DNA of 64,000 nucleotides. It comes from Fictibacillus terranigra. Lineage in GTDB: Bacteria > Bacillota > Bacilli > Bacillales > Fictibacillaceae. The stretch covers positions 1-64,000 of the forward strand of contig NZ_JAUHLN010000008.1 in the NCBI RefSeq assembly GCF_030412265.1. Direction: 5' to 3'. Each line of letters opens with the position of its first letter. The stretch's first letter is position 1. A model generated the notes under the pieces. That model searched no databases. It saw nothing but the letters and a program-made list of their open reading frames with translations, and had not been told where the DNA came from. Both the position numbers and the translations under genes were made by a program. This document shows, one piece after another, positions 1-6,659 of the stretch.

Positions 1-170
1 TAATAACACGTCTCTAAATAAAACTTGACCGGTTAGCTGAGCCGATGCAGAAAATTAAGCGCCATACAACTAACGGATTTCCTTCTTTGCCGTGTGTGGG
101 TCTATCCCGGACGGCCAGCGAAAGCAAACGGTTCCGACGGTAACCGTTGTGTTCCGGCACAGGGATTCAG

Positions 171-196
171 GGCAGAATAAAGAATTGCCTTTTTCG
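171..196 (+). terminator. possible weak terminator
   Basis: A short stem (GGCA-AAT pairing with AATTGCC) is followed by TTTTT. It could end transcription entering from the left of the window. I see no gene in bases 1-170. Confidence 0.3.
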
Positions 197-241
197 AGTT
201 TAGCCCTCGCCTTAGATTATTCATTTTTATTCTTTTAGTAA

Positions 242-935
242 AATGTAAATATAAATAGTTGCTTCATCAAGATCGCTAAAACTTTTCATTTCTTGATTCG
301 ATTTGTAATTGGTCACCTTTATTGTTCGAGAAAGGTTCGTTCCGATAAAAAACGAGACGTCAAACCGACAATTTCTAGCCATCTCAAAAATTGTATATAT
401 CGCTTGTCCTACATCACGAATACACCGGTTAAGGATGTGGCCGAAACCATATGCGAAAAAGGACTGCAATCGAGGAACGTGCTGGACTACTTATCTCAAT
501 TTTTCCGAAGAGATCTGCAGTTTCTTAATACCGTTTATATGGGCGATTGGGGACGGGAATCATTACAGAAGAAAATGCAATCAGGGAAGAATGAGCGGAT
601 CACCATTCGCTTTACTCCAGCAACCTATGAAAACATCTATTCCCTGTCTCGCGCATTGGACGTGACCCCATCAAAAGCGACAGCACTATTAATAGATGCC
701 AGTATCCGAAACACTCATCTATTGAATGCTTTCGTAAAGTGCTATCTGCATCAGCATATAGATGCAGCCAGAATGAAGGAATTAAAACAGGTACCGGAAA
801 TACATCAATAAAAACAATCCATACAACGAGGAAATTTCCTAGTTTGCCTTGCTTGCGATGATCTTTGAAGACATAAAGGAAGGGACCAGCAATCTAAAAG
901 ACGTCATTCATAACTGGATGGAAAAATACAAATAA
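242..935 (+). pseudogene. frameshifted hypothetical gene
   Basis: An open frame runs from 242 to 811, but its only usable start is a TTG at 293 without a convincing ribosome binding site. After about position 790 the likely continuation lies in the +1 frame: it reads through a TAG at 840-842 and ends with the peptide FALLAMIFEDIKEG... and a stop at 933-935. The intact ancestor would have had 210 or more residues. The middle (about residues 100-150) has a helix-rich, ribbon-helix-helix-like look (KNERITIRFTPATYENIY, then two helices), so a DNA-binding role is possible, but I do not recognise the family. Frameshift plus nonsense codon make a decayed gene the best reading. Confidence 0.5.
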
Positions 936-1070
936 TTTTATTCATTTTTTCAAGAAATATCGTTAATAGAAATTCCGACCATAATACCTACGTGGGAAGG
1001 CAAGCTGTTTACAGCCATCATTTCCTGCATTCTCGTCGGACTGGTGTGGAAAAGGCTTAAAACACGGTAA
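936..1070 (+). pseudogene. possible C-terminal remnant of a membrane protein
   Basis: An open stretch without a start codon encodes a tail with one hydrophobic segment (LFTAIISCILVGLVW) followed by basic residues KRLKTR and a stop. It lies directly behind the decayed gene and looks like the 3' end of a lost membrane protein gene. I do not recognise the family. Confidence 0.2.
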
Positions 1071-1234
1071 GGCTCATGTTGGGAAAATGCCTAAAAAACA
1101 TCAGGAGTTGGGTTTTATGGTGTTTTTTGGTACTTTATATGCATTTTTATTTTATCGGTTGCTTGGTACAAGAATTTTCGTATAAAGTGATATTGTTGTA
1201 TTTTTTCCAAATCCATGTAAGGAGGCAAAAGTGT

Positions 1235-1792
1235 ATGAGCATGAAAAAATCGTTGATCTGTTTTTCAGCAGCAGGATTTCTTGCACTGCAAGCTTTACTC
1301 CCAGCCGCGGCGAACGCTAGTTCCGAGGTGAAATCAGAAAAAATGAGCGTGGCAGATCCTTATCCCGGGCACGTCATTAAATACGGGGACCGTGGATCTG
1401 ATGTTAGAAAAGTACAAACACAGCTAAACAAGAATCGGATACCGATTACGGTGGATGGAATCTTTGGTAAGGTGACTCTTAAGAAAGTGAAGCAGTTTCA
1501 ATACTATCGCTACTTAAAGACGGATGGTCTTGTGGGTCCCTCCACATGGCATGCTCTATATCACACGCCAGTGCCTTATCCTGGACACGTCATTAAGCTG
1601 GGTGACCGAGGCCAGGATGTAACGAGGATTCAGGCACGCTTAAATGATGCGGGGGGTTCCATTAAAATTGATGGCATCTTTGGACCGAAAACAGAAGTGA
1701 GAGTAAAAGGTTTTCAAAAAAAGCATCACCTTACAGTGGATGGGGTCGTTGGCCGGGAAACATGGGAAGTGTTATTTAATTACGAGGAATAG
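1235..1792 (+). CDS. secreted protein with two peptidoglycan-binding domains
   Basis: Exported protein of 185 residues. The start ATG at 1235 is chosen because AAGGAGG lies at 1219-1225, 9 bases upstream; the frame is open further upstream but without a site. A signal peptide (basic MSMKKS, hydrophobic core, cut near ANAS) is followed by two tandem PG_binding_1-type repeats, about residues 45-105 and 115-180. Each has the pattern LGDRGxDVxxxQ...DGIFGPKT...GLVGxxTW. Such domains bind cell-wall glycan peptides. No catalytic domain is attached, so it is probably a wall-bound accessory protein, not a hydrolase. A related single-repeat protein lies on the minus strand at 14175-14669. A terminator follows at once. 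Confidence 0.85.
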   Translation: MSMKKSLICFSAAGFLALQALLPAAANASSEVKSEKMSVADPYPGHVIKYGDRGSDVRKVQTQLNKNRIPITVDGIFGKVTLKKVKQFQYYRYLKTDGLVGPSTWHALYHTPVPYPGHVIKLGDRGQDVTRIQARLNDAGGSIKIDGIFGPKTEVRVKGFQKKHHLTVDGVVGRETWEVLFNYEE

Positions 1793-1805
1793 AATATAAA
1801 AAATG

Positions 1806-1845
1806 AGGCATCGGGAGAACTCATCCTGGTGTCTTTTTTTGTTGG
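1806..1845 (+). terminator. rho-independent terminator
   Basis: An 11-bp stem with three G-U wobbles (AGGCATCGGGA with TCCTGGTGTCT) is followed by TTTTTTT, right behind the peptidoglycan-binding gene. Confidence 0.6.
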
Positions 1846-2163
1846 GGAAATCATAGCCTCAAAGTAGGGAGGAAGGGATTGAATATTCAGTGCGTATTTT
1901 AAGCCATTGTTTCAATATACGTTTTATCTTTTTGTGCACTAAAGTTACTAGCTGCACAAGGCCAAATATACGGAACATAAAAGGATACTTAAAGAGTTTT
2001 TTAATGACCAAACAAAAGGTAAAAAAACCGGATAAAATGATAGTGTAATAAGTGGTTTGGACTCCTCGCTTTGGAAGCCTTTTTAACGGCTGCTGGCATC
2101 GAACCCTTTCCGTTAGGCGGCAGCAGCCCTTTTCTGTTTTACAGCCGCCAAAAGGGCGGATGG
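1846..2163. other. gap without recognisable gene
   Basis: No coding frame with a ribosome binding site. An inverted repeat GGCTGCTG...CAGCAGCC at about 2086-2133, followed by CTTTT, may be a terminator or part of a lost RNA. Confidence 0.3.
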
Positions 2164-2390
2164 TTTACACGTGACTTTTTATATAGTGGAAATAAGCAAT
2201 TGTCCTTATGTATGGAGGTGAGGTGATGTCATTGGATCAGCGCAGTACTGCCATGTTGTTCCATTTGTCGCAGGCCGAAGCATACATCTCAGTGGATGAA
2301 TTGATCGAGAAATTCAATGTGTAAAAACGTACCATTTACTATGATATTGAAAAAATAAACGAGTGGCTCAGTGATAACGACCTAAAGCCT
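2164..2390 (+). repeat. duplicated 5' end of PRD regulator locus (copy 1)
   Basis: About 227 bases nearly identical to 38427-38656, covering the upstream region, ribosome binding site and first ~55 codons of the PRD/PTS regulator gene. Identity begins sharply at TTTACACGTGAC and stops at CCTAAAGCCT; the flanks differ. The partner copy has three extra bases, which double its start codon. Confidence 0.9.
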
Positions 2391-2430
2391 CAGGCATTTC
2401 GCTCGTGCCCAAGACATTAGAGGAATGGAG
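2226..2430 (+). pseudogene. truncated PRD/PTS transcriptional regulator remnant
   Basis: Begins with GGAGGTG-5-ATG and the same N-terminal helix-turn-helix as the intact gene at 38489 (MSLDQRSTAM..., SVDELIEKFNV). A TCA-to-TAA change at 2322-2324 stops it after about 32 codons. Beyond 2390 a short stretch that still resembles the later LVPKKLE segment follows after a deletion, then homology ends. It cannot make a working regulator. Together with the second repeat at 3241 it suggests that a second copy of the whole PTS operon once stood here. Confidence 0.8.
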
Positions 2431-2490
2431 TTCGGAGCACCATTAGATTTTGAGAATACAAAAGATAGTTTTATGGGTTTTTTATGTCAC

Positions 2491-2658
2491 TTAGTCCCTT
2501 TTCTCATTATCGATCGATTTTTGAACGAAAGATGGATGGAAAACAGAATTTGTTATGTAAAGATAGTTTACACTTTGCTGTTGTCCTTTTATCCAAGATG
2601 CCATAAATATACCAGAAATGACAAGACCTATTACTACAATAAAGAACAGTTGTGACAT
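2491..2658 (-). CDS. small LexA-controlled single-pass membrane protein
   Basis: A 55-residue protein, too short for usual gene calling. ATG at 2658-2656 is preceded by AAGGAGG with 6-7 bases spacing, and the frame ends at TAA 2493-2491. Residues 4-23 form one hydrophobic helix (LFFIVVIGLVISGIFMA); the rest is a polar tail of about 32 residues ending in NEKRD. A near-consensus promoter containing a perfect LexA/DinR box lies 90 bases upstream, so SOS induction is expected. Known SOS-induced small membrane proteins in other bacteria (SosA, SidA, YneA) delay cell division; a type I toxin-like peptide is another option. I do not recognise the family; function is inferred from size, topology and regulation only. 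Confidence 0.65.
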   Translation of the reverse strand: MSQLFFIVVIGLVISGIFMASWIKGQQQSVNYLYITNSVFHPSFVQKSIDNEKRD

Positions 2659-2741
2659 GTTTCATCCTCCTTGAATTTACCAAAATGTCAGTAGGAGATT
2701 CTACTGATCTCGAATCCTAATGTAATCACCCTGTTCAATAA

Positions 2742-2770
2742 ATTATACACGAACATTTGTTCGTATAAAA
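2742..2770 (-). promoter_or_regulatory. SigA promoter of the small SOS gene
   Basis: On the minus strand -35 TTTTAT (2770-2765), a 17-base spacer and -10 TATAAT (2747-2742). The LexA box fills the spacer, a standard repression geometry. Confidence 0.7.
2750..2763. promoter_or_regulatory. LexA/DinR (SOS) box
   Basis: CGAACATTTGTTCG is an exact match to the Bacillus consensus CGAACN4GTTCG and lies between -35 and -10 of the minus-strand promoter. Confidence 0.85.
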
Positions 2771-3071
2771 CATAAAAATCTAAAAATAACCGATTTTCTT
2801 CTAACTCCCTGTTCGATCACTTTGCTCCGTTATGGAAGGTAACATCCTAATGGAATGAAGGCTGTGTGTGTATCTTCAGCGGAAGATACAAGCCATCGTA
2901 TAGATAAGGAACGGGGCCGTTAAGGGAATTTCATATCAAAAGACAGTCGTAAAGCTGGTTACAATAAGGGTTATAGTTTGTAAAGTTGTAAAGAGTTTTT
3001 AAAAAAGGTCTGTTTTTGTTCCTTTTTATTTTGCACAGGTGTTAAAATGAATTTCACGCCACCCCTTTTCG

Positions 3072-3112
3072 ACCCTTTCTCTTAGTCCCTTACGCTAAGA
3101 GAAAGGGTTTTG
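3072..3112 (+). terminator. strong hairpin without a recognised gene
   Basis: A perfect 14-bp stem (3072-3085 with 3095-3108, ACCCTTTCTCTTAG and its complement), 9-base loop and a T-rich tail. No coding gene ends here; it may end a small RNA or a lost gene. Confidence 0.6.
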
Positions 3113-3125
3113 TCCTTTCAAGAGG

Positions 3126-3305
3126 ACATGAACATAATCACTGGAACCATCTATTACAGAACTTAGAATTATTCGTTGTCTAATGAAGTTACAGGAAGAC
3201 TCGCAGCTGCCGGGAAACTCATCGGTATTGATGTACCGGACACCTATCATTAATGCGAAGGCCGAATACACTAGTCTGAAAGAAAAAGGCGATTTGTATT
3301 TATGG
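3126..3305 (+). pseudogene. decayed radC-like (JAB domain) 3' end
   Basis: Frame-broken pieces resemble the C-terminus of RadC/JAB-domain proteins: a HNH-like stretch near 3130, then EVTGRLAAAGKLIGIDV (from 3185), then YTSLKEKG after another shift (about 3269). Family members end with a similar AGKLIGIEVLDH...SLKEKGY pattern. The tail section recurs at 45.4 kb. No start and at least two frameshifts, so non-functional. Recognition is from memory of the family. Confidence 0.45.
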
Positions 3306-3402
3306 GAGGGAAGGAGATCTCCTTTGCTCTTTTTTTAGGGAGAATCGAACTTTCGAAATTAAAAACACAAACGAATTTGCAAGCGGAAATGCTTGCGTTT
3401 CC
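3241..3402 (+). repeat. duplicated 3' flank (copy 1; partner at 45368-45532)
   Basis: About 162 bases share most positions with 45368-45532: the radC-tail coding stretch, a poly-T hairpin region and the segment TTTCGAAATTAAAAACA...GCAAGCGGAAATGCTTG. The partner lies just behind the intact PTS operon, in the same order and orientation as the 2164/38427 repeat. Confidence 0.8.
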
Positions 3403-3580
3403 ATTGCAGGAACATCCAAACAAATTGTATGCAGTCTTCATAGATTATATTACGTAGTATTCTGCGTATTTAAACATTATACTAAAGATTTTTTCGGCAC
3501 TCCTTGCTGAAGGAGATGAGGACAACCTATAGCAGGCAAACGCTAGGCCAAGATAGAGACTGACTTAAGGAGGAGAGAGC

Positions 3581-3730
3581 TTGGAGGTAAGAAGGCATGT
3601 ACTTATTTTGAATCTTCTGCAAATGGGTGTATGGAAAACAAGAGACGGAAGGCGGCTTACTACATTAAGGCTGGATGAATTGGAACGCGAATACTCAAAA
3701 ATGTTGGACAAGAAAGAGGAAAGGGTTTAG
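3581..3730 (+). CDS. FbpA/FbpB-like small basic protein
   Basis: A 49-residue protein starting with TTG at 3581, chosen because AAGGAGG sits at 3567-3573, 7 bases upstream. The pattern LLxMGVWKTRDGRRLTTLRLDELEREY resembles the Fur-regulated basic protein family (FbpA/FbpB), whose members help the FsrA iron-sparing RNA in Bacillus subtilis; many Bacillaceae carry paralogues of unknown role. No clear Fur box is visible upstream. Its stop overlaps the end of the convergent ligase gene by 4 bases. Family assignment is by pattern only. Confidence 0.55.
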   Translation: MEVRRHVLILNLLQMGVWKTRDGRRLTTLRLDELEREYSKMLDKKEERV

Positions 3731-4548
3731 AGAAATTCTTCAAAAGAAGGGGTTCTCAATAAACCAGCTTTTGTATAGTTCCGGAATTTCACTTTTGCTT
3801 TTATAGGATCGGCTGGAAAACGAACAAAATCACCGTACTCTTCATATTTAGAATTATGTGCCATGCTATACACTTTCTGGCGTGCATGAGAAGGGGCGAA
3901 TTCAAGTGTGCCGGCTGGCAATCCGGTGTCAAAATTAAGGATCCATCCAAATTTAGATTTACGGTAACCGGTGATCAGCACATCCTCGAAAGAGTAATTG
4001 ATTACTTTAAGCCAGTTTTTTGAGCGTTGACCAACCATATAAGCAGAATCTTTCCTTTTGAGGAAAATTCCCTCTAACGATTGACTACAGCATAAAGAGA
4101 AAAGCTGTTCACTGTTCAAACCTGAAAGAGACTTTACCTTTGCGATAAGAGGTGAGTCATCGGGCAACACATCAAATAAGAGCAGCTTACGTTGTTCTAA
4201 AGGGAGTGAGGTAACATCCTTGCCCTTGTAATAGAGAATATCAAAAACACAGTACGTAATCTGACCTTTAGAACGAAAGAACCTTTGCATGCAGGATTCA
4301 AAGTCGGGCTTGCCGGCCTCATCTGTAACAACAAGCTCACCATCCAGAATCGTGCCAGCAGGTAACGGATAAGAAAGAAGCTCACCAAAGCGAGCAGAAA
4401 TATCATTTTTGTGCCGAGTGTAAAGTTTAGACTTTTCGCCCATTGTTGAAAAAATAGCGCGAATCCCATCGAGCTTTAACTCAGCAATATAATTTTCACC
4501 ATTAAACGGCTTCTCAATCTTATGTAGAAGCATCGGACTAACGAACAT
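3727..4548 (-). CDS. ATP-dependent DNA ligase (LigD-ligase/YoqV type)
   Basis: A 273-residue ligase. The ATG at 4548 is preferred over an upstream GTG (4557) because TGAGGTG lies 6 bases before it. Motif I ELKLDG gives Lys25 as the adenylation site; DGELVV (motif III), EGIFLK (motif IV) and WLKV (motif V) follow, then an OB-fold region to the end. Size and order match the stand-alone ligases related to the ligase domain of LigD and phage SPbeta YoqV. It would seal nicks using ATP, probably in repair or end joining. No Ku gene is nearby. The unusual LSGL/CSQ linker before motif IV is unremarkable for the family. Confidence 0.85.
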   Translation of the reverse strand: MFVSPMLLHKIEKPFNGENYIAELKLDGIRAIFSTMGEKSKLYTRHKNDISARFGELLSYPLPAGTILDGELVVTDEAGKPDFESCMQRFFRSKGQITYCVFDILYYKGKDVTSLPLEQRKLLLFDVLPDDSPLIAKVKSLSGLNSEQLFSLCCSQSLEGIFLKRKDSAYMVGQRSKNWLKVINYSFEDVLITGYRKSKFGWILNFDTGLPAGTLEFAPSHARQKVYSMAHNSKYEEYGDFVRFPADPIKAKVKFRNYTKAGLLRTPSFEEFL

Positions 4549-4835
4549 GTAGAACACCTCAAGTAAAGCGTATCATTACTTGATCTGACATAGATAACAA
4601 AAAGACACTGGGAACTGATGGAAAGAAGAAGCGGAACATGGATCATAGAATGCGGGTTTCTTCGAATTGGGAGATGTTTACACGCTGCTTTCGTTCAATG
4701 AATCGTTTGCGGTGCAAAACAACTGTAATTGTTTGGCCCTGTCGTCCGGCACAGCACGAACAAACGCCCACCGGTTTTATGAAAGATGGGATATTCCAAG
4801 GTCTTCCATGTTTTTAAAAAAGATTTTGCAACATA

Positions 4836-4875
4836 AAAAAACCGTTGCGCCTTTTGGCGTAACGGTTTTTTTAGT
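4836..4875. terminator. bidirectional terminator
   Basis: AACCGTTGCGCC/GGCGTAACGGTT stem with one G-U pair, flanked by A-tract and T-tract. It ends the minus-strand glsB-like gene just right of it. Between 4549 and 4835 I see no supported gene. Confidence 0.75.
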
Positions 4876-4883
4876 TATCAGTG

Positions 4884-5138
4884 TTATGCGTTTCTTCGCA
4901 TACCACGCAAAATTGCACTGACAATCAATACAATGACAATTGCACCGATAATCGCTGGTATGATGGCAAAACCTGCAACGGTAGGACCCCAGTCACCAAG
5001 GACTAGTCCGCCGAGCCAAGCGCCAACAAAACCTGCGATAATGTTACCAATGATTCCGCCAGGAACGTCACGTCCTGTAATTACTCCTGCTAACCAACCA
5101 ATAATACCACCTATAATAAGTGCCCAAAGAAAACTCAT
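4884..5138 (-). CDS. GlsB/YeaQ/YmgE family stress-response membrane protein
   Basis: An 84-residue, glycine-rich membrane protein with three hydrophobic segments (about 3-20, 28-50, 56-78). The pattern GxIxGWLAGxxxGRDVPGGIIGNIIxGxxGAWLGG is typical of the transglycosylase-associated (PF04226) family. Start ATG 5138 has AAAGGAGG with 8 bases spacing. The biochemical role is unknown; homologues belong to general stress regulons. A SigB-type promoter lies about 55 bases upstream, which supports that here. Confidence 0.9.
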   Translation of the reverse strand: MSFLWALIIGGIIGWLAGVITGRDVPGGIIGNIIAGFVGAWLGGLVLGDWGPTVAGFAIIPAIIGAIVIVLIVSAILRGMRRNA

Positions 5139-5189
5139 TTGTGTGTTCCTCCTTTAAAAATTTTTGTTTTACTGTTTTGTACCGTTAAA

Positions 5190-5215
5190 ATACCCATTGG
5201 CAAATAAAAATAAAC
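5190..5215 (-). promoter_or_regulatory. SigB-type promoter of the glsB-like gene
   Basis: On the minus strand GTTTAT (5215-5210), 14 bases, GGGTAT (5195-5190); consensus is GTTTAA-N13-15-GGGTAT. Only one base deviates. Confidence 0.65.
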
Positions 5216-5792
5216 AAAATAAAAAAAATCCTCAGACATGTGATAAGACAATAAGTTGATGAATTTAAATTATTATCTAGTACCCCAACCATTTTCCTAA
5301 ATAACAACCCAAAGTGGATAATTCCGTACAGGGAGACATTAAAAATACAAACGGATGTTTTAAGATATAAAAGACATATCGGGTTAACTCCTCCTTATAC
5401 GATAAAAAGTTTCTATAATACTCCAACTTGAGGGGGCAGTAACTACCAGCTTTTTTATCATACTATTTAATGGAGAGAAGTCTTTATTACGACTTTTGTA
5501 TGTTTTGTGGAAACGAATTTTTTTGTCCGATGATGCTAGACTGGGAGATTACTAGAGGTTTACTAAGGAACTAGATTGTTAAATCTTGATTTGGGCAAGC
5601 CATCTCCCGCGTTGTGGTGATGTTTTTCTAATGAATTTTGTGGCACCGGGTCGATTTTCAAATAAGGCTATAGAAGCACTTAATGAGTTGAAACTTTTTA
5701 AGTTGAGTAATTGTTAAGAATCTAAGTAGAAAATTATGAATCAGATATTATAGAATAGAGAATAGAAAGAAAGAGAAAGAAGAGGTCACGCA
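5216..5792. other. gap without supported gene
   Basis: AT-rich. A 28-codon frame at 5631-5717 (MNFVAPGRFSNK...) lacks a ribosome binding site and may be a remnant. A promoter for the following rpiR-type gene is expected here but I could not fix one with confidence. Confidence 0.3.
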
Positions 5793-6659
5793 ATGAGCGA
5801 TTTGAGAGTAAATACAAATCCTGGCTTTTTCACCAGAACTAATGCGGCTATGTCAAAGTTGAGGGATTCAGAAAAAAAGATTATAGAGTACATTAAACAA
5901 AATCAAGAAGAAATTATCCATCTTTCAATAACAGAGGTTGCCGAAAGAAGTGAAACAAGTGAATCTTCTGTCGTTCGCTTATGTAAACGGCTAGGATACA
6001 AGGGCTTTCAGGATTTAAAAATAAATTTGGCCAAAGAAGTAATGACCCCAGAAAAAGTTATTCACGAAATTATTGAAAAAGGCGACGATGTTGTAACTAT
6101 AAAAAAGAAGGTTTTCCAGTCCAACATACAAGCCTTATATGATACGATCGAGGTTTGTAATGATGAAGAAATAAAGAAAGCGGTCAATGCCATATCAAAT
6201 GCCCGTCTAATCGAATTTTATGGAACTGGCGGATCAGGTACTGTGGCACTTGATGCGCACCATAAGTTATTGAAATTAGGGATAAAATCATTTGCCTATA
6301 ACGATTCCGTTCTACAAGCTATGTCAGCAAGCGTTTTAACCAATAAAGATGTGGTTATCGGAGTTTCTCATACGGGTTCCAATACAGATGTATTATCTGC
6401 TCTAAAATTAGCAAAAGAAGCAGGAGCAACTCTTATTTGTATAACTGACTCATCCAAATCCCCTATTACAAAGATTTCGGACATTGTATTACAAACAGCA
6501 TCAAATGAAACCTTATTTCGTACCGATGCAATTTCCTCAAGGATAGCTCAATTAACCATAATTGATATTTTGGTCGCTGCTGTAGCTAACCAGAAATATG
6601 AAATGTACTATCAAAACCTTCAGAAAACAAGGAAATCAACGATTGATAAGAAACTTTAA
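5793..6659 (+). CDS. RpiR-family transcriptional regulator
   Basis: A 288-residue regulator. Residues about 12-85 form the N-terminal helix-turn-helix of the RpiR family (SITEVAERSETSESSVVRLCKRLGYKGFQDLK is the recognition region). Residues about 125-255 form a SIS sugar-phosphate-binding domain with the pattern IEFYGTGGSGTVALDAHHK and GVSHTGSNTDVL. Such proteins sense a phosphosugar and usually act on the adjacent genes. Start ATG 5793 follows AGAGGT at suitable distance. It is followed by its own terminator, 240 bases before the catabolic genes, so it is probably a separate transcript controlling that cassette. Confidence 0.9.
   Translation: MSDLRVNTNPGFFTRTNAAMSKLRDSEKKIIEYIKQNQEEIIHLSITEVAERSETSESSVVRLCKRLGYKGFQDLKINLAKEVMTPEKVIHEIIEKGDDVVTIKKKVFQSNIQALYDTIEVCNDEEIKKAVNAISNARLIEFYGTGGSGTVALDAHHKLLKLGIKSFAYNDSVLQAMSASVLTNKDVVIGVSHTGSNTDVLSALKLAKEAGATLICITDSSKSPITKISDIVLQTASNETLFRTDAISSRIAQLTIIDILVAAVANQKYEMYYQNLQKTRKSTIDKKL

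Follow-up and report, generated by a model that had tools for sequence, protein, structure and literature searches.

An SOS-type promoter over a probable DUF5316-type relic, present three times in the genome of Fictibacillus terranigra

The window analysed here, a stretch of DNA of 64,000 nt, contains an exact LexA (SOS) box within a promoter, followed by a 55-codon open reading frame (ORF). Given these elements, it was originally predicted that the ORF encodes a new SOS effector, perhaps a division inhibitor or a toxin-like peptide. The locus raises the question of whether such a promoter must mark a working gene, or whether it can also stand over a gene that has lost its function. We consider it probable that the second is the case here, and that an intact-looking SOS promoter now drives a relic, a truncated DUF5316-type pseudogene lying on a piece of copied mosaic scrap.

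The promoter and its LexA box

The promoter and the ORF consist of the following elements.

2750-2763, no strand assigned: exact LexA (SOS) box CGAACATTTGTTCG, with the same letters in all three genomic copies
2742-2769, minus strand: promoter TTTATA-16-TATAAT (two hexamers and a 16-nt spacer), with the LexA box within the spacer
2666-2672, minus strand: ribosome binding site AAGGAGG, 7 nt upstream of the ATG (2658)
2491-2658, minus strand: 55-codon ORF, with a DUF5316-like N-terminal half and a tail of frameshifted look; probable pseudogene
2560-2643, minus strand: codons 6-33 of the ORF, aligned to DUF5316 (PF17247 positions 11-38; E=0.085, 13.1 bits, cut-off 28.7)
2491-2532, minus strand: tail of the ORF, in another frame than in L024; an indel of one base lies beside 2532

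As originally described, an exact LexA box occupies the spacer of a TATAAT promoter, and it is followed by a strong ribosome binding site and the 55-codon ORF. The hydropathy of the ORF reaches a maximum of 2.5 (19-residue span) from residue 5, which fits the one predicted N-terminal helix. The box is the sole exact one in the window, and its overlap with the promoter is the arrangement by which a putative member of the LexA regulon is recognised at the sequence level. As judged from these letters, the promoter looks real and looks SOS-controlled, with LexA binding and induction presumed.

It might be argued that the box arose by chance and that the promoter is not controlled by LexA, since LexA boxes by themselves are not enriched. 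In the whole genome, there are 6 exact sites, of which 3 are the repeat copies described below, versus 5 for a reversed control pattern, and 87 one-mismatch sites versus 174 for the control. Within the window, boxes with up to two mismatches number 16 versus an expected 17.7. However, it is the combination of the box with the -10 element, rather than the box alone, that stands out. Sites at which TATAAT follows a box by no more than 6 nt number 3 in the 4.97-Mb genome, all of them repeat copies, and 0 for the control pattern. When the window was shuffled 200 times with its dinucleotides preserved, an exact box turned up in 2 of the shuffles and the combination in none. Likewise, box-NN-TATAAT with at most one mismatch has a single match in the window, in the 2491-2763 unit, and none in 100 shuffles. 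In addition, the promoter stretch shares an 84% alignment of 50 nt with an intergenic region of another genome (G187) whose flanking ORFs we take to be lexA-like and yneA-like. With these findings against it, a chance origin of the box is regarded as highly improbable.

A mosaic segment in three copies

A segment of about 0.8 kb that carries this promoter is found three times in the genome, with 97-99% identity and in surroundings that are otherwise unrelated: once in the window, once at C9:38.6-39.5 kb (the L022 copy), and once at C9:1381.6-1382.5 kb (the L024 copy). Its parts, and those that adjoin it in the window, are as follows.

2486-3266, no strand assigned: core of the three-copy segment, by pairwise alignment
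2619-2802, no strand assigned: block of 184 bp, identical in all three copies, with the box, promoter, 5' leader, ribosome site, and first 13 codons
2960-3236, no strand assigned: block of 277 bp, identical in all three copies, with a strong terminator hairpin and part of the radC scrap
3071-3109, plus strand: terminator-like hairpin, 16 pairs
3179-3291, plus strand: remnant of the radC C-terminus, its frame broken in the window
2390-2480, plus strand: N-terminal piece of a transposase gene, IS110-like by a weak match of the L022 copy to PF01548 (E=0.22, 11.7 bits)

Outside gaps, the core is 98.6% identical between the window and L022, 97.8% between the window and L024, and 97.3% between L022 and L024; 74 alignment columns near 2846 are missing from the window and present in the other two. 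Between the window and L022, the similarity extends leftwards to 2382, across the IS110-like fragment; between the window and L024, it extends rightwards to about 3418. When the initial 12 kb of the window were compared by blastn with the 8-9 kb loci of the other copies, nothing further in common emerged.

The flanking pieces bear out the suggestion that the ORF sits in decayed DNA, as it lies between the radC and IS110-like fragments. The identity of radC comes from a match of the L024 copy to PF04002 (E=5.8e-4, 20.2 bits) that falls slightly short of the cut-off of 22.1. In L022 the radC frame continues into other sequence, a fragment of a SMODS nucleotidyltransferase (PF18144, E=6.1e-10). 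Stretches that match the transposase fragment (G213, G163, and G260; L026-L028) begin with the same N-terminus in frames that run, stop to stop, for 184, 444, and 450 residues, and we assume the name IS110 for them from the weak Pfam hit.

Several other features were observed nearby. The SMODS-type fragment, at L022 4384-4965, adjoins the right end of the repeat and matches profile positions 106-162 of 164; we take it to be CBASS-like. On the minus strand of the window, a 276-residue ORF at 3727-4557 contains a domain of ATP-dependent DNA ligases (PF01068, E=9.6e-29). An Rfam scan of positions 1-6000 found nothing within the repeat segment and two sub-threshold matches at 4832-4922. The match at 4835-4917 (minus strand), to the OrzO-P antitoxin RNA, scores 33.9 bits versus a gathering threshold of 60 and is possibly due to chance or to a terminator.

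Two blocks of the segment do not vary among the three copies, whereas elsewhere the copies diverge by a few per cent. In the case of the 184-bp block, selection on the promoter could explain this. However, the 277-bp block, with its radC scrap, is equally identical, and recent exchange between the copies would suffice as an explanation. Consequently, because the second identical block holds radC scrap and a terminator, identity alone is no evidence of selection on the ORF. A functional RNA within the 277-bp block was considered and is not claimed; the fold z-score is -2.07 for the plus strand, with 2 of 100 shuffles folding as well, and -1.67 for the minus strand, with 8 of 100, and the terminator hairpin is the most prominent element.

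The surroundings of L024 raise the possibility that the promoter belongs, or once belonged, to a phage. There, the copy adjoins a DUF3102-like gene and a gene for a terminase small subunit, both on the promoter strand, and the stretch that contains them (L024 2185-4019) is probably a prophage remnant. The SOS promoter might have served these genes, or might in L024 still serve them, with the ORF as a leader only. The layout in L024 would permit this, given that the ORF copy ends at 4137, a frame on the same strand starts at 4019, and the terminase small subunit (phrog_51, E=4.3e-13) is encoded further on, at 2640-2185 on that strand. Yet in the window and in L022, the ORF lists, inspected by eye, have no recognisable same-strand gene after the ORF, and that of the neighbouring 16 kb (L076) has by eye no phage gene. 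Furthermore, the DUF3102-like protein matches phages weakly, in 7 records with 25-28% identity and 61-65% coverage. Service to prophage genes is thus thought to be quite unlikely.

Kinship and selection of the 55-codon frame

If the promoter is under SOS control, what does it express? Scans of the ORF against Pfam, NCBIfam, and PHROGs yielded no confident family. The best sub-threshold matches were to DUF5316 (E=0.085) and phrog_20526 (E=0.08), with none in NCBIfam. The window copy scores 13.1 bits and the L024 copy 13.8 bits against DUF5316 in Pfam, L022 has no Pfam hit, and the gathering cut-off of 28.7 is reached by none of the three copies. Stronger evidence for the same family comes from a search of other genomes with the ORF itself. 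Among 99 other genomes, five matches to the ORF were obtained at E<=1e-3 (G097, G054, G043, G038, and G001), and all five coincide with DUF5316 genes that had been located independently by the family model. At E<=1, 71 of 100 genomes (own included) were matched, mostly by what looks like noise, and the weaker matches are mixed, with L009 and L011 being DUF5316 and L008 and L010, by look, not. The family model itself matched 90 of 299 genomes at E<=0.001, 86 of them above cut-off, and the genome of the window has a separate DUF5316 gene above cut-off at C13:34543-34746. The alignment of the ORF with the family spans ISGIF..xW..GQQQ..N, and with all five of the above matches falling in the family, the N-terminal half of the ORF is judged homologous to DUF5316. 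A short match between the tail of the ORF and a protein in L036, unrelated by look, was judged to be chance.

Relative to this family, the ORF is truncated. Intact DUF5316 relatives among the five have frames of about 70 residues (the relative in G097 has a 48-residue frame, itself broken by a stop), and a second hydrophobic stretch is visible in the relatives L003, L005, and L006. All three copies of the ORF end ahead of this second helix, and no downstream frame shows it. Furthermore, a one-base indel between the window and L024 turns the tail HPSFVQKSIDNEKRD into HPSFRSKIDR, and the L024 version of the ORF has 50 codons. Because HPSFRSKIDR is closer to the HRDFRMKIA of DUF5316 than HPSFVQKSIDNEKRD is, the tails of the window and L022 are probably the products of a frameshift. 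The ancestral frame would then be the L024 type, the direction of change being taken from this resemblance only.

LexA boxes were looked for, in both orientations, at 38 DUF5316 loci, of which 37 came from the DUF5316 model and one (L007) from resemblance only. At none of the 38 do the 350 nt upstream of the match contain a box, whether exact or with one mismatch, where distances run from the start of the match rather than that of the gene and are invalid for L067, at a contig end. The loci as a whole (115,917 bases) contain four one-mismatch boxes, none of them in L067, and no exact one, which is close to the figure of about 3.4 that chance would give if all bases were equally frequent; the one closest to a DUF5316 match, in L049, is about 370 nt upstream.

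Searches for the unit itself also bear on the original prediction, which called for homologues with a conserved frame. A tblastn search with the ORF in plasmids and phages found no match, the DNA of 2486-3266 found none in the same collections, and comparison of the ORF with genome_contigs and viral_contigs gave 211 and 9 pattern stretches, respectively, none of them a relative; each of these four collections may leave out records of the window's own genome. In 6 genomes of the same genus and 27 others of the same family, the ORF finds nothing better than a DUF5316 gene, and the promoter-plus-ORF DNA finds short matches only, the box and gene together not being conserved there. When this DNA was used against 100 genomes (own included), with seven candidates scored per genome, 55 were matched at E<=0.1. 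In the 99 other genomes, the matches span 18-65 bp and reach at best E=5.9e-4; one in G004 and one in G006 correspond to the LexA boxes of YvrJ genes (see below). Thus, in the collections searched, no other genome yielded a homologue that keeps the 55-residue frame in full.

The ratio of substitutions had been named as a further check. The ORFs of the window and L022 differ at 4 of 130.5 nonsynonymous and 2 of 34.5 synonymous sites (pN 0.031, pS 0.058). If sites were hit at random, roughly 4.7 of these 6 changes would be nonsynonymous, which is near the observed 4 of 6. The nonsynonymous changes are I14N, within the helix, W22L, K24E, and an I to L change at codon 35. The comparison gives no indication of purifying selection on the ORF, although with six substitutions its power is low. 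Both of these checks, on homologues and on substitutions, speak against the original prediction.

Could the ORF still be a working peptide, derived recently from half of a DUF5316 gene and encoded three times in the genome, which acts upon SOS induction as a division brake or in a toxin-like manner? The start, the strong ribosome site, the single helix, and the LexA-type promoter are kept in all three copies, and the 55-codon frame is kept in two (the window and L022). However, the same frame is found in no relative outside the genome in the collections searched, the helix of L022 carries the I14N change, L024 has the indel, and the comparison of copies gives no sign of purifying selection. 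Taken with two further points that emerge below from known SOS systems, a working peptide is considered unlikely. What remains of the original interpretation is the LexA-type promoter in decayed DNA; the new SOS effector, whether division inhibitor or toxin-like peptide, finds no support in a truncated DUF5316 half that shows no sign of purifying selection.

These results have led to the relic hypothesis given at the outset. In this model, the ORF would be the N-terminal half of a gene for a DUF5316-type small membrane protein that has lost its second helix, and the window copy would probably also have gone out of frame near the end of the ORF. The promoter, the half gene, and the radC scrap with its opposite-pointing terminators would be part of an approximately 0.8-kb piece of mosaic scrap that has been copied to three places, an order of events that we infer, as we do the loss of function of the ORF. 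Upon DNA damage, LexA would release the promoter, and a short transcript would yield at most a hydrophobic peptide of 55 residues, presumably with no selected function. The locus also offers a caution, since a perfect LexA box, a promoter, a ribosome site, and a helix can all occur on a pseudogene. It is a long shot that the half DUF5316 gene, copied three times under its LexA promoter, is instead a young, lineage-specific SOS-induced membrane peptide. If so, an SOS effector would be seen here in the course of its birth, or of its death.

Comparison with known SOS systems and a conserved YvrJ-family gene

The closest systems in outward form are the SOS division inhibitors. According to PMC6851548, the characterised Gram-positive inhibitors have a single helix, are encoded beside lexA, and often have a LysM domain; LysM is given there as present in YneA and ChiZ and as absent from SosA and DivS. 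According to PMC13396833, YneA requires both its helix and LysM, and its target is FtsW. The ORF resembles inhibitors of the YneA/SosA type in having a LexA-type promoter and a small product with one N-terminal helix. Unlike them, it is not beside lexA and no conservation of it was found in the genomes searched, and unlike YneA and ChiZ, it has no LysM in the Pfam scan. The lexA of this genome lies at C9:407 kb with a divergent yneA-like gene of 94 residues (LysM E=7.7e-8), and the intergenic region between the two has box-like sites with 1, 2, and 2 mismatches. That a yneA-like gene is already present beside lexA is the first of the two further points against a working peptide.

The second concerns TisB/IstR, in which an SOS toxin is paired with an antisense RNA encoded nearby. 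TisB, like the ORF, is a short hydrophobic peptide with a LexA-type box and a leader of about 80 nt. An antisense pair of this kind was not supported here, as duplex energy was no better than that of shuffles in the two stretches tested: 300 of 300 shuffles were as good for 3041-3113, and 117 of 300 for 2801-3113.

The DUF5316 family (PF17247) comprises small membrane proteins of unknown function, on which a literature search by name returned nothing. The ORF shares with it the N-terminal helix and the aligned motif. In contrast to DUF5316, the ORF has no second helix, its tail is probably frameshifted, and it has a LexA box, compared with none of 0 or 1 mismatch at the 38 loci over the distance searched.

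A different gene of the same genome, outside the window, offers a further comparison. At C8:101948-102181 (L021 4949-5182) lies a YvrJ-family gene of 78 residues (PF12841, E=6.9e-12), and an exact LexA box starts 48 nt upstream of its start. A search with this gene matched 26 of 40 genomes (own included) at E<=1e-5. All 16 close homologues, which comprise 7 of 7 from the genus, 8 of 8 from genus g4, and 1 of 1 from g3, have a LexA box upstream, exact in 11 and with one mismatch in 5. Of seven named Fictibacillus contigs, six agree with loci analysed here across the 300 bases compared, and the seventh, that of F. aquaticus, has a box with one mismatch. The 10 distant homologues (8 in genus g2, 2 in other families) lack a box in their upstream 200 nt even when two mismatches are allowed. 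In each of the 16, the frame next to the YvrJ gene encodes a similar, MKLFLILGA-like membrane protein, presumably DUF423/YwdK. A literature search found nothing that joins YvrJ with LexA, and the YvrJ papers, by title, do not deal with this.

Like the 55-codon ORF, the YvrJ-family gene encodes a small membrane protein and has an exact LexA box. Unlike in the ORF, both gene and box are conserved, and pN/pS is 0.11-0.28 in the 10 pairs formed by five same-genus genes of 78 codons, two other same-genus genes having been left out since their start or length was read differently. The YvrJ-family gene is thus a candidate for a conserved SOS small membrane protein. Being conserved in the same bacterial family, it offers a better target than the 55-codon ORF for the question of SOS effectors.
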